Under the pieces are notes generated by a model. That model worked only from the letters and a program-made list of their open reading frames with translations. It was not told the origin of the DNA and did not search any database. The translations under genes and the position numbers were made by a program. This document shows positions 3,996 through 38,804 of a stretch of 64,000 bases of DNA, piece by piece. The DNA comes from Acidobacteriota bacterium. GTDB lineage: Bacteria > Acidobacteriota > Thermoanaerobaculia > Multivoradales > J023. Position 1 is the first letter of the stretch, and each line of letters starts with the position of its first letter. Location: contig JAJCXO010000156.1 of the NCBI GenBank assembly GCA_029263395.1, positions 62,001-126,000 on the forward strand. The letters are read 5' to 3'.

Positions 3996-6900
3996 TCAGG
4001 CCTCGGCTTTGAGCTCTTCGACCTTTTCCGCCACATCGCGGTAGTGGCTGTTGCGGCCGTAGACCTCGACGAAGGTCTTAAATGCAGCCTCGGTGTCGCC
4101 CAACAATTGATAGGCGGCGCCCATATCGTAGAGCAGACCGAGGGTCGCGTCTGGACTGATCGTCGGCGACTCCAAACCTTTCCGGTAGGAACGGACTGCC
4201 AGCTCGGGAAGCCCCTTCTCGAGGAAGCAGATGCCTAGCAGCGAGCAAGAGTCCACGACGTAACGTCCGTCTTTGGCCGCCAGCTGGAATTCACCGATCG
4301 CTTCATCGAGCAAACCCATCTCACGATAGGCAATGCCGAGATTGAAATGCGTGTCGTAGTCTTCCGGCGAGAGGTTTTCCGCCACACCTTGCTTGAAGCC
4401 TTCGATGATGTCTTCGAGACTTTGTTCCTGAGGGTGCAGGTTGACCCCACCAGCCTCGTCTTCCGACAGCTCACGCTCCAACTCCGCGGCGAGGTCAAAG
4501 AAGTCGTCTTCCTCTTCGAAGATCGTTTCTTCCTCAGCCGCGGCTGCAGGATCTTCTGAGTCGATCTCGTCGAGCCAGCTCATACCCGTCTCGTCGAGGG
4601 CATCGACCGAGTCTGCTGCGACGACGTCTGCTGGGCTGGCGGCGAGCTCATCATCCAAGTGCTCATCGAGCTCATCGAGCCCCAACTCGTCAACCAGGGA
4701 AACGAGCGCCTTGTCATCCGCTATCGGCGTAGACAATTCGATCACCGGCGGTTCCGACGCCGAAGCAACAACCGCATCTGCAGTGCCTGCTGGCTCAAGC
4801 GCTTCGCTGACCTCTTCGGGGGATCCGGTCTGCGGTGACACATCCTCCAGGGATGCCGCATCCGGGGATACGGCTTTGGGAGGCACGACTTCGGAGGCCA
4901 AGACTTCCGGGGGCACAACTTCGGAAGACGCAACTTCGGGACGTACGGCCTCGAGCCCGGCTGCCTCAATGACCGGGCTCGAATCTGCAGGTCCGGCAGC
5001 TTGGGCGCCCGGCACCGGGATCGCTCCCGAACCTGGGGCCACCGGCGCATCGAATGTTTCGAGGCTCAAGTCATCGAGCAATTGAGCGATCCGATCGTCC
5101 TCGACGATCTTGGCTCCCGGCTCACCGATTACGCGGTTACCGTCGAGTATGAAACCCGCGTCGGACAAAGTGCCGCGGAGCTCATTCCAGAGGTGGGGCT
5201 GTTCGGTCTCGCCAGCAATTCGCGAGACCAAATTGGCATTCGCCAGCACATCGGTAAATTCACCAGCCTCGAGATCGACCCGGGTCTGAAGCTCCAGCGC
5301 TTCGAGATGGTCAGGTCGGATCTGAAACAACTCACTCAACCGATCGCGCGCCTTTTCCTGCAGGCCATACTTGGCGAATACTCGCGCTTCTGCCAGCAGA
5401 TCCTCTTCACGGCGTTGGTCGAAGGCCGAGGATCCAGCCCCTGCTTCTTCTTCGGCACCACCTTCAAATTCAGCATCAGCTGACAACCCAAGTTCGTCGG
5501 CGATCTCGCTACTAACTGCGGGCTCGTCAGTTCCCAGGTCTATCGAGTCGAAGTCGAGTGACTCGAGCTCGAGCTCGAGCTCCTCATCGGTATCAACCGA
5601 TGCTGACGCATGCGCGTGTTCAACCGGTTCGAGACTCGGCTCGCCGAGCTCAAAATCCTCGAGATTCAACGGTTCGAGCGCACCTGCACCCGCCCGTTGG
5701 CCTGGAACCGTCTCGTCGAGGTCTATTTCGAGATCAATTTTGGAGCTGGCCTGGACCGGCTCACCGGATACCGGCAGATCAAGTTCCTCGATCTCATCCA
5801 TTGGCCAATCGATTTCGAGTGCCTGCGGATCAACCGCTGAACTCTCTTGAGGTGCCTCGGCTGGCGGCGGTACAACGCTCGTCGCTGCATCCAGTCCGTC
5901 AAAATCGAAGCTGTCCTCACCTTCGAAGGTGATCTCGCCGTCAAACTCTGCTGACGCGAGCTCGCCTGATCCAGCCCCTTCTCCCTCTACCATGTCGGCC
6001 GGTGGCGTCACCAGGCTGGACGGCACCTCGTCGTCGTCGAGATCGAAGGTAAAAACATCGTCATCATCATCACTGTCGGGTGCAACGGCATCGGCGGCCG
6101 CGGAGGCCGTTGCCCGCGTCTCTTCGAGAACATCTTCGATGTCATCGAAACCCGCGTCGGGCAGCGTAAATGCATCGTCACCACCGAAGGCATCATCGGT
6201 CGCGAAGGCATCGTCGCTAGCGAACGTTGCATCGGTAGCATCGAGATCTGCCTGAGTGCTCTCCTCCGGGATCTCGAAGCGAGCTCCATCGTGCCCTGCA
6301 GACGGCTCGTTTGAAATCTCCAGCTCAACAGCACCACTGGTACCGAGGCCTATTTGCTGCGTCAACGACGCAGCGGCGGGATTGAGCTCGACAGCCTTTG
6401 CTAACACTCTGGCGGCCTCACTCACATGCCCAGCACCGTGGAGCCCAGAAACTGCCTCACGCACGAATTCGAGATCCTCGCTATTGACCTCTAGCGCTTT
6501 CAAATAAACCTGGGCAGCCTCGTCGACCGAACCACCGACAATCAACAAATCGGCTAACAGCCGATACTCTCTCATCGCCTTGTCGATCAGACGCTGGCTT
6601 TCGTAGAGTTCGGCAAGCTTGAGGTGGAAGGTCGGATTGTCGGGCTCGAACTCCGCCATCCGCTGATAGATTGTGATCGCCGACGCTGCGTTGTCGTGCT
6701 TCTGGTAATAGTCGGCGAGAACCTGGTACTGAGTTCTAGCTTCGTTGAGCAGGCCTTGCTTGTGATAGAGCTCGGCGAGCCGCTCATAAACCGTCAACGA
6801 GGTCGGATCGAGCTTGATGATCTTTTTGTAGATCGCGATCGCTTTGACGAAAAAGCCATCCCGCGTATATTGCTCGGCAATCTGCGAGAACAGCTTCACC

Positions 6901-9084: not shown

Positions 9085-9638
9085 GTCTCGAGCAACCCAT
9101 CCGGTAGCCGGCACCGGATCCGCTGTCTATCGATGTCTACCTCTTCGAGGAACGCCTCGACAAACGGTATCAACAGAGTTTCCGCTTGGTTCTCTACCTC
9201 GAGCAACACCCCGCCGCCATCCTCTAAAATTCCTGTCACTCGGCCCAGGTCACCCAATTCGGTATCGACGCAGGCACAGCCGACAAGATCGAAGTGGTAG
9301 TAGAGGCCCTCCGGCGCCTGCGGTACGTCCTGGCGTGCAACTTCTAGGCGAGCCCCGCGCAAAGCCTCGGCTCGATCACGACCGAGCCAACCTTCGAAGC
9401 CGATCACTCCGCCACCACGCGACGGTCGAAAGCTCGCGATTCGAACGCTCTGTGGCGGCCGACCCGCAAACCTCAGCAACAGTTCAGCGCCGGGCTGAAA
9501 CCGATCGGAAACGTCGCTATAAACCTGAATCTTGACCTCGCCCCGCAACCCATGCGGTCGGATCACAGAGCCAACGAGGATCGTTTCCGACGAATCGTCG
9601 CCGACTGAAGCTTCAGGATTCGAGGATTTCGAGCCCAT
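9066..9638 (-). CDS. rimM: 16S rRNA processing protein RimM
   Basis: The 190-residue protein has the RimM N-terminal barrel ('ILVGSVIRPHGLRGEVKIQVYSD') and the C-terminal PRC-barrel ('YYHFDLVGCACVDTELGDLG', 'GVLLEVENQAETLLIPFVEAFL', 'DIDRQRI'). RimM binds uS19 and assists maturation of the 30S head. The ATG at 9638 overlaps the 3' end of the KH-protein gene by 26 bases, and its own 3' end overlaps trmD. The position between the KH gene and trmD is the conserved one. Confidence 0.95.
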   Translation of the reverse strand: MGSKSSNPEASVGDDSSETILVGSVIRPHGLRGEVKIQVYSDVSDRFQPGAELLLRFAGRPPQSVRIASFRPSRGGGVIGFEGWLGRDRAEALRGARLEVARQDVPQAPEGLYYHFDLVGCACVDTELGDLGRVTGILEDGGGVLLEVENQAETLLIPFVEAFLEEVDIDRQRIRCRLPDGLLETCASKS

Positions 9639-36589: not shown

Positions 36590-36846
36590 AGCCGAACTAA
36601 GCTAGATCCCGCCCCGTTTTGCCATTATCGGCTCAGTGAGGGAGGTCTTGTGGAGCGAGCAAGCAGCGAGCGTGTTTGAGCGTCGCATTCGTTGGCATCT
36701 CGTATCCGTTAGCACCTAAATAACTTAGGCATGCCGCAAGAGATCCGGCGAGTTCCCGGAGCTGCGGCGCAGCCCACAAGGCCGATCGAGCTCTCGATGC
36801 GTTCCTAGAAGAAACCGGGCTAGAGCCTGTGGTACCGTCGTTGCGC

Positions 36847-38283
36847 ATGTCCTCACATCCCTTAGCCGACGGGCTTATCGCCATCGTCAAGAAGGCTTGC
36901 CCAACCTGTGAGCTGGTGGTCCCGGTACTGGAGCAACTTGCCCGCGCCGACATCCCTCTCGCCGTATGGTGTCAGGACGAACCCAACTTCCCTCCCGGAC
37001 TCGATGTCTACGATGACCGCGAGCTCGAAACCTCGTACCGTTTCGGCATTCAGACCGTACCGACCCTGTTGCGCATTGACCAGGAACGCGAGGTGGCACG
37101 CTTGGAAGGCTGGCTGCGCACCGACTGGCAACAGCTGAGCGGTATCGACGATTTGGGGCTGGGACTGCCGCCACAACGCCCGGGCTGCGGTTCATTGTCC
37201 GTGGAGCCAGGGCGCGCCGAACGTCTCGAAGCTCGTTATGGCGATCGCCTAAAGGCACGTCGTATCGAGTTCGGCACGCAAGAGGACGATCACGAGGCAC
37301 TATTCGAACGCGGCTGGACCGACGGCCTACCCGTGGTTCCACCGACCCCAGAGCGAGTGGTCCGCATGCTTGCCGGCACCGATCGACCGAGCGACGAGGT
37401 TGTCGCGCAGATACCTCCCAACCTGGCACCGGGCACCGTCGAGAAGATTGCCATCAACGCCGTCATGGCGGGCTGCAAGCCGGAGTATTTGCCAGTGGTG
37501 CTGGCTGCCGTCGAGGCCGCTTGCCAAGACGCCTTCGGGCTCCACGGTCTGCTGGCGACAACCTTGTCCCACGGTCCGGTGGTAGTGGTCAACGGCCCGA
37601 TTGCCGGCCGCATCGAAATGAATTCCGGACTCAACGCCCTCGGCCAAGGCAACCGCGCCAACGCCACCATCGGCCGTGCGCTACAGTTGGTGGTGCGCAA
37701 CGTCGGCGGTGGTCGTCCGGGTGAAGTCGACCGCGCTTGCCTCGGCAGTCCAGGCAAAATCTCGTTCTGCTTCGCCGAGAACGAAGCCGATTCACCGTGG
37801 GAATCGCTCGCCGTGGAGCGCGGTTTCGCGGCCGATGTTTCAACCGTCACGCTCTTCGGCGGTGAAGCACCACGGGTGATCGTCGACCAACTGTCGCGCA
37901 CTCCAGTATCGCTCGCCAACAGCTTCGCCGCTTGCCTGCGAACCGTCTGTCACCCAAAGTTGCCGATCGTCTTCGATACCATCCTGGTCGTCTCCCCCGA
38001 GCACGCACGTGTCTTCCGTGACGCCGAGTGGTCAAAGGCACACTTGCGAAAGGAGTTGATCGGCCGACTGATGTTGCCCTGGGAAGAACTCGAGCGCGGC
38101 GCAGGCGGCATTGCCGAGGGTGTGCCGGAATCGATGCGTCAGCCAGTTATCCCCAAGTTCCGGCCCAAAGGGCTCCTGATTGTGCATGCCGGAGGCCCAG
38201 CTGGACTGTTCTCAGCAATCATCGGCGGCTGGGTCAACGGTGACACCGGAACCCAACCCGTCACCGTGGAGGTCCGCTCATGA
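36847..38283 (+). CDS. Thioredoxin-fold protein with large uncharacterised C-terminal domain, partner of a UGSC selenoprotein
   Basis: About 478 residues. Residues 1-95 resemble thioredoxin: a redox pair 'KKACPTCELVVPVLEQLA' and a cis-proline loop 'FGIQTVPTLLRIDQEREVAR'. A linker with 'RPGCGSLS' follows. The remaining 330 residues form a conserved-looking domain starting 'WTDGLPVVPPTPERVVRML' and containing 'AINAVMAGCKPEYLPVVLAA', 'GLLATTLSHGPVVVVNGPIA', 'GNRANATIGRALQLVVRNVG' and several Cys residues. No signal peptide is seen. Its stop overlaps the selenoprotein start as ATGA, so translation is coupled. I recognise the domain as one found beside UGSC proteins but know of no assigned reaction. 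A GTG at 36829 is an alternative start. Confidence 0.85.
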   Translation: MSSHPLADGLIAIVKKACPTCELVVPVLEQLARADIPLAVWCQDEPNFPPGLDVYDDRELETSYRFGIQTVPTLLRIDQEREVARLEGWLRTDWQQLSGIDDLGLGLPPQRPGCGSLSVEPGRAERLEARYGDRLKARRIEFGTQEDDHEALFERGWTDGLPVVPPTPERVVRMLAGTDRPSDEVVAQIPPNLAPGTVEKIAINAVMAGCKPEYLPVVLAAVEAACQDAFGLHGLLATTLSHGPVVVVNGPIAGRIEMNSGLNALGQGNRANATIGRALQLVVRNVGGGRPGEVDRACLGSPGKISFCFAENEADSPWESLAVERGFAADVSTVTLFGGEAPRVIVDQLSRTPVSLANSFAACLRTVCHPKLPIVFDTILVVSPEHARVFRDAEWSKAHLRKELIGRLMLPWEELERGAGGIAEGVPESMRQPVIPKFRPKGLLIVHAGGPAGLFSAIIGGWVNGDTGTQPVTVEVRS

Positions 38284-38804
38284 GTCCATCAATGACCGTC
38301 CTCGATCCCACCGACGAGAGTCGGCCAACGGCGCGACAACGCGCCCCACGACTCGACGCACTGGCCGGCCGTCGTATCGGCTTGCTCGATATCTCCAAAG
38401 CCCGCGGCGACGTCTTTCTCGATCGTCTAGCCGAACATTTGGGTGAACGCGGTGCCCACATTGAACGCCTGCGAAAACCAACCTTCTCTCGACCCGCCCC
38501 GGCCGATCTGCGCCAAGAGATCGCCACCCGCTGCGACGCGGTGATCGAAGCCCTCGCCGACTGAGGGTCTTGCACGTCGTGCAGTGTGCACGACCTCACC
38601 GATCTCGAATCCCGCGGCATCCCCAGCGTCATGATCGCCTCCGACGAATTTGTCCGGGCGGCTCGTGTCCAAGCAGACGCTCTCGGCTTCGAGCCCGCCA
38701 GCGTTTTCGTCCACCATCCGATCCAAGACCGCACCAACGACGAAATGCGCCAGATCGCCGACGACGCCGTCGACGAGATCGTAGCGGCGCTGACCAAAGG
38801 CTAG
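38280..38804 (+). CDS. UGSC-family selenoprotein (TGA at codon 95 read as selenocysteine)
   Basis: The frame from ATG 38280 to TAG 38804 is uninterrupted except for a TGA at 38562-38564. Reading it as selenocysteine gives 'CDAVIEALADUGSCTSCSVH', the exact U-G-S-C motif that names the UGSC family, followed by 'LTDLESRGIPSVMIASDEF' and a normal end ('DEIVAALTKG'). The protein is then 174 residues. Other bacteria carry Cys homologues at this place. A further Cys lies three residues after the UGSC motif (UGSCTSC), so a redox centre is likely. The ATG overlaps the preceding stop. The two halves are 102 codons apart in one frame, and the second half has no ribosome site of its own. A hairpin follows the TGA (38576-38594). 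Confidence 0.92.
38576..38594 (+). promoter_or_regulatory. Predicted bacterial SECIS hairpin
   Basis: Eleven bases after the TGA, GTCGTGCA (38576-38583) and its exact reverse complement TGCACGAC (38587-38594) enclose a GTG loop. In bacteria SelB binds a stem-loop just downstream of UGA, usually with G and U in or near the apical loop, and a spacing of about 11 bases is the one found in E. coli fdhF. The hairpin is within the coding sequence. GAG at 38563-38565 and CTC at 38595-38597 could add a lower stem. A competing smaller hairpin TGCAC/GTGCA (38571-38583) is possible. Confidence 0.75.

Follow-up and report, generated by a model that had tools for sequence, protein, structure and literature searches.

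A gene that appears to be split in two at positions 38280–38804 very probably encodes a single selenium-containing protein of the UGSC family, and the best overall explanation, which we regard as very likely, is that this selenoprotein acts together with the product of the preceding gene (36829–38283) as a redox enzyme; that its selenocysteine chemistry resembles that of GrdB is a more tentative proposal. Positions refer to the window, the whole stretch of 64,000 nucleotides analyzed here, and both genes of the pair, with their parts, lie on its plus strand. The UGSC gene itself differs in nothing from known members of its family. The interest lies in the partner gene and the link to GrdB, which turn a "function unknown" into a two-component enzyme that can be tested; both of these, together with an expansion of the family in a related genus, go beyond the initial annotation.

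The TGA at 38562–38564 is the sole stop between two open reading frames that share one frame (38280–38564 and 38586–38804), as the ORF list and sequence confirmed. Reading through it gives a product of 174 residues that ends at a TAG and carries U as codon 95 within EALAD-UGSCTSC-SVHD, so that the exact U-G-S-C-T-S-C motif described earlier, an instance of the U/C-G-S-C family motif, is indeed present. A likely ribosome-binding site, GGAGG (38268–38272), lies seven bases before the ATG. The whole read-through product matches NCBIfam NF041046 with 160.7 bits (cut-off 125) and Pfam PF24696 with 166 bits (cut-off 25), and both matches span the TGA. When taken alone, the halves score 56 and 66 bits, each against its own half of the family model, and the read-through product in turn matches the whole model, which is more than chance would give. 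The initial annotation was also right that the family is already known; passages of earlier papers name it and report how abundant it is. The only PF24696 match in the organism's own genome (10.7 Mb, 291 contigs) is this gene, with one TGA inside. A form with cysteine at the selenocysteine position, proposed as a point of comparison, was absent from the UGSC members examined here; a passage of the GOS survey (PMC2398784) lists 21 such homologues. A PDB sequence search with UGSC returned only chance-level rows, and a scan of viral contigs, which reaches close relatives only, confirmed no relatives. The promoter and terminator scan gave no promoter-like sites and one terminator-like site on the other strand, which is fewer than the shuffle mean.

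Comparison at the sequence level indicates that the TGA at 38562 is almost certainly decoded as selenocysteine by the genome's own SelA, SelB, SelC, and SelD, with a hairpin at 38576–38594 as the putative SECIS element. The suggested search for selA, selB, selC, and selD found all four in the genome: selA with 534.5 bits, selB with 346.4 bits, selD with 365.4 bits and an in-frame TGA of its own, and a tRNA-Sec with 68 bits that ARAGORN labels tRNA-SeC, with anticodon TCA (a UCA tRNA). An ordinary stop, which would leave a pseudogene or two short peptides, agrees with plain ORF calling, where two short ORFs result, and with the normal role of TGA in this code. It is, however, contradicted by this full selenocysteine machinery, by conservation of the protein past the TGA, by a hairpin loop that is held at the codon level (see below), and by the recurrence of TGA at this motif in relatives from several phyla (73 of 80 loci); these 80 are the best of at least 584 loci, chosen by similarity to the partner gene of the window, and their frequencies are therefore not a census. 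In the remaining loci the codon is TAG once (L073), and L083 is cut off before it. A sequencing or assembly error that turned a cysteine codon (TGC or TGT) into TGA could be suspected in a draft assembly of 291 contigs, yet TGA recurs at this site in tens of independent genomes. Because of this recurrence in relatives both explanations are rejected, the ordinary stop as very improbable and the assembly error as more improbable still.

The initial annotation had counted TAG or TAA at this codon in a close relative as evidence against selenocysteine. A TAG does occur once, at L073:6662–6664 in Candidatus Blastococcus massiliensis, and yet it supports selenocysteine, because that genome contains a 64.2-bit match to the tRNA-Sec model with anticodon CTA (labeled tRNA-Pyl by ARAGORN) and because a passage of PMC5330540 reports a CUA tRNA-Sec, together with UGSC selenoproteins that use Sec-TAG, in Geodermatophilaceae. 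The one other tRNA-Sec match over the cut-off in the L073 genome, with 48.2 bits, is a tRNA-Ser. The TAG thus appears to be an instance of the known recoding that follows the tRNA. Among the 80 loci, a SelB-cluster gene lies nearby in nine, six of which also have a SelA-cluster gene, where each cluster was identified by Pfam through one representative. In a separate case, the UGSC match G250:C44:6327–6794 contains one TGA and one TAA.

The SECIS-like hairpin that had been placed 11 bases after the TGA was borne out, with arms at 38576–38583 and 38587–38594 and the loop GTG at 38584–38586. Its folding energy alone is unremarkable and proves little. The 45 bases that start at the TGA prefer another, longer hairpin in which the TGA itself is paired (z −1.18; 24 of 200 shuffles as low), and the 81 bases at 38550–38630 fold into exactly the conserved hairpin with z −0.23. 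The case for the hairpin therefore rests on comparison, and it was judged by pair counts and codon bias across relatives that span Acidimicrobiia, Alpha-, Beta-, and Gammaproteobacteria, Chloroflexi, and Acidobacteria and whose kinship makes all of these counts dependent. Within the phylum, 22 sequences (21 distinct) were aligned after 16 of 38 selenocysteine-bearing rows had been left out (nine as near-duplicates, seven as divergent or fused), and 94.6% of 168 cells were paired. The outer G–C pair becomes A–U in three rows, and in L027 a C–G pair near the loop becomes G–C at the cost of a change from cysteine to tryptophan in the protein; a slide of +1 equals the structure in its pairs and cells with changes on both sides. 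Among the seven divergent or fused rows is L048, whose genome belongs to the same family as the window; it keeps the TGA and folds differently. RNAalifold, applied to 38 rows of which four are chance matches, recovered a weak part of the hairpin.

Across 95 sequences (88 distinct), 94.0% of 704 cells were paired, compared with 92.2% in shuffles and 5–55% in slides. Ten cells were changed on both sides, where the shuffle mean was 2.3 and none of 500 shuffles reached ten; the three pairs changed on both sides were equaled in number by 24 of 500 shuffles, and the further pair types by 10 of 500. A slide of −1 gave 15 cells changed on both sides versus 10 for the structure, and a slide of +2 gave a covariation score of 0.118 versus 0.105. 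The strongest sign for the hairpin, as far as the aligned sequences indicate, is codon use at Sec+7, whose bases make up the loop and the last pair. This codon is NGT in all 75 rows counted (62 AGT-Ser and 13 TGT-Cys), domain hits below 100 bits or without U being excluded, whereas in the partner domains that these loci encode AGT makes up 7.6% of 1330 serine codons and TGT 27.3% of 461 cysteine codons. Serine at Sec+2 uses all six codons. One sequence in the wider set, L024, has GTT at Sec+7. NGT at this position could serve as an annotation test for stand-alone UGSC members. The Rfam model SECIS_1 (RF00031) had no match in the organism's own genome, a result that shows nothing because the model matched none of the 14 control genomes either. 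No Rfam family matches at 38400–38800; a narK match on the other strand was dismissed as chance. Taken together, the family match across the TGA, the full selenocysteine machinery, and the conserved hairpin support the initial annotation of a UGSC-family selenoprotein.

The partner gene (36829–38283) ends in an overlap with the UGSC start at 38280, as ATGA, and its product consists of a thioredoxin-like N-terminal domain, a linker in which a Gly-Cys is invariant, and an unnamed core of about 334 residues. The domain and linker (36844–37278) make up the first 145 residues or so, with CPTC at 36898–36909 and a cis-Pro-type VPT at 37057–37065. In the alignment A8, which holds 20 of 81 available sequences, C19, T21, C22, V72-P73-T74, and the Gly-Cys of the linker are invariant. 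Pfam Thioredoxin_2 narrowly misses its cut-off of 27 with 26.6 bits, and thioredoxins are the best PDB sequence matches of the N-terminal domain (E 9.5e-6). The core (37279–38280) has 15 invariant columns in the 25-row alignment A3 and one match in the organism's own genome; D165, N278, R283, N291, and E317 are among the invariant residues of the partner. Searches with the core against Pfam (up to E 0.001) and against PDB sequences (up to E 1) gave no match, and a profile comparison with UGSC found no similarity (0.1%). The single PHROGs row for the partner (E 0.6) is at chance level and was discarded.

The pairing of the two genes is close to constant in the 80 loci. In 72 of them UGSC lies directly downstream of the partner, on the same strand and no more than 300 bases away; in three it is elsewhere in the locus, and in five it is not seen. 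Among the five, L091 and L125 stop shortly behind the partner gene, where L091 shows an apparent UGSC start, and the other three (L084, L131, and L146) continue for 1.3 to 5 kb past it. In L096 and L103 UGSC precedes the partner gene and is encoded on the other strand, and L076 has two UGSC hits about 3 kb apart (5673–6170 and 9098–9400). It is highly probable that the UGSC protein and the 36829–38283 product are the two halves of one redox enzyme encoded by this gene pair. A constant partner with a thioredoxin-like domain gives a hint at the function of the uncharacterized UGSC family. No link between such a gene and UGSC was met in the literature passages covered.

GrdB is the selenocysteine subunit of glycine reductase, and GrdE is its pyruvoyl-type subunit. 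A comparison of the UGSC alignment A1, from which 11 near-duplicates among 42 rows had been left out, with 15 GrdB-related sequences (A6, which holds 15 of 16 references, L186 being left out) by hhalign gave 92.8% with a score of 48.9 over 78 columns, and placed selenocysteine on selenocysteine. The more homogeneous UGSC alignment A4 gave 51.8%. L073, with its TAG, was left out of A4 and of A7, and L085 (the same as locus L044) and the fused members were left out of A7. When the seven motif columns were masked, A1 still scored 39.1 (78.3%) and A4 30.7 (32.5%), compared with maxima of 18.6 (A1) and 19.1 (A4) in 60 column permutations and 20.6 for a reversed profile. The best of 37 control families, a periplasmic binding protein, reached 30.8 (21.2%) and the next 18.6. 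Compared separately, the two GrdB sequences gave 92.7% and the 13 short relatives 65.3%. The two full-length GrdB relatives carry the motif SNUATCSRC, and the UxxC active-site motif of the GrdB/PrdB-like region is present in UGSC. We read the similarity as probable distant kinship on the strength of these profiles, and not as proven membership.

Pfam PF07355, which matches in 94 of 396 genomes of the phylum, gave no HMMER match to the window protein up to E 10. It cannot see the UGSC-like part, because the model ends before the selenocysteine codon in the five matches checked (L179, L180, and three short loci), where it stops one to three residues short of the in-frame TGA. A side observation concerns the short proteins of L181–L187 and L193–L205 (13 loci in A6), which match only the C-terminal part of PF07355 and carry, immediately after that part, a UPxC motif with an in-frame TGA; judged by these sequences, they apparently form a further group of selenoproteins related to GrdB and PrdB. 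The partner core showed no similarity to four GrdE-like ORFs (0.6%, from a small alignment), so that the architecture of glycine reductase, in which GrdE-like proteins stand beside GrdB, appears not to be copied here. In the passages of the 2026 review that were covered, PrdB is described as homologous to GrdB and no link of UGSC to either is mentioned; such a link may nonetheless be published.

An AlphaFold2 model of UGSC (pLDDT 92.9, pTM 0.86) consists of five beta-alpha units and puts Sec95 immediately in front of the helix 96–111, so the fold is predicted to be alpha/beta and Rossmann-like. Foldseek and VIA-align searches with this model returned many Rossmann-like folds, such as flavodoxin and receiver domains. 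The top VIA-align match, from which no functional conclusion is drawn, is 8s7v_H (Z 11.7, rmsd 3.2, 132 residues), a chain of the methyl-coenzyme M reductase activation complex. The search with the model of a fused protein effectively covers residues 42–203, which are the UGSC part. When compared with the usual order of strands and helices in the thioredoxin fold, the predicted model argues against a thioredoxin-like fold, and absence from the fold-search lists excludes nothing. A thioredoxin-like fold had been suggested for UGSC in a passage of the 2008 paper (PMC2398784).

UGSC matches were found in 41 of 396 genomes of the phylum when at most eight candidates were scored per genome. In the genus g61 all candidates of eight genomes (G113, G258, G274, G122, G196, G037, G085, and G180) were scored, which gave 137 matches, 110 of them with TGA and three under the Pfam cut-off; many of these genomes are drafts in many pieces, the position of the TGA was checked in those ORFs that were read, and some of the weakest matches may not belong to the family. 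The highest counts for single genomes were 28 matches (20 with TGA) and 27 (17 with TGA), and SelA was above the cut-off in all eight. According to a passage of the 2026 review, the largest selenoproteomes known in bacteria number 57 and 63. The g61 expansion is large for one family, and no record is claimed. Most of the g61 matches that were read are fused to the partner domain. Thirty ORFs in which UGSC and the partner are fused, UGSC first, were read, 29 of them in g61 and the remaining one in a different genus of the same family. U stands at the motif in 25 (12 UGSC, 12 USSC, and one USTC), and the five without selenocysteine have serine (four) or leucine (one) at that position. A six-pair hairpin with the loop GGTC forms in nine of the 12 USSC rows, and the USTC row has one with the loop GGCC, at unexceptional energies (z between −1.3 and −0.2). 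Nine fused rows with UGSC-T-K-(F/Y), namely L069:14668–16296 and eight similar ones, have the TGA at the motif and no convincing hairpin after it. The fused paralogues are ready single-chain constructs.

From the coding evidence, the gene pair, the motifs, and the profile similarity we infer a complex, an electron flow, a chemistry, and a kind of substrate as follows. UGSC and the partner product would form one enzyme complex, with a small substrate held by the partner core domain. Sec95, which opens the helix that follows the third strand of the Rossmann-like domain, would act on this substrate as the attacking nucleophile, as in GrdB. Cys98 could then resolve the selenium adduct to give a Se–S bond with Sec95, as the UxxC motif would allow, and the thioredoxin-like CPTC domain of the partner would reduce this bond and so recycle the selenocysteine reductase. 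By analogy with GrdB, UGSC may cleave a carbon–heteroatom bond, which we advance tentatively and at less than even odds. The chemistry could instead be that of a general thiol, disulfide, or peroxide reductase, in which Sec95 and Cys98 would reduce a protein disulfide or a peroxide, the partner would be a dedicated thioredoxin-type reductant, and no GrdB-like carbon chemistry would take place. Such an enzyme would suit the UxxC(xxC) motif, the linked thioredoxin-like domain, and the grouping of UGSC with thiol redox families in a passage of PMC2398784, but it fits poorly with a predicted UGSC fold that lacks the usual thioredoxin arrangement, with a large partner domain whose invariant Asp, Asn, Arg, and Glu exceed the needs of a simple reductant, and with a copy number in one genus that suits different substrates; on balance we give it slightly lower odds than the GrdB-like chemistry. 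If the GrdB-like reading is followed, UGSC and its partner could possibly, though we would not yet call it probable, represent an undescribed class of selenocysteine-dependent reductase with a minimal GrdB-type domain and a new substrate subunit, found in several phyla and with up to about 20 TGA-containing paralogues per genome, mostly fused, in one genus. The g61 paralogues would then act on different substrates.

Three known systems invite comparison. The N-terminal domain of the partner resembles thioredoxin in its CxTC and VPT motifs and in its match to a thioredoxin chain, but differs in being fused to an unnamed domain and in a Pfam score just short of the cut-off. The fused ORFs recall a passage of the GOS survey (PMC2398784) that describes the fusion of a UGSC domain with a conserved unknown domain named Unknown_1; the likeness is that of UGSC joined to a conserved domain, as in the 30 ORFs here, and the core partner domain is perhaps Unknown_1 itself. 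With GrdB (PF07355) and PrdB, UGSC shares U-x-x-C-x-x-C at the same place (UGSCTSC and UATCSRC), followed by E..GIP and a later HP motif, whereas it is much shorter before the selenocysteine and, unlike GrdB, is paired with a partner that is not visibly like GrdE.
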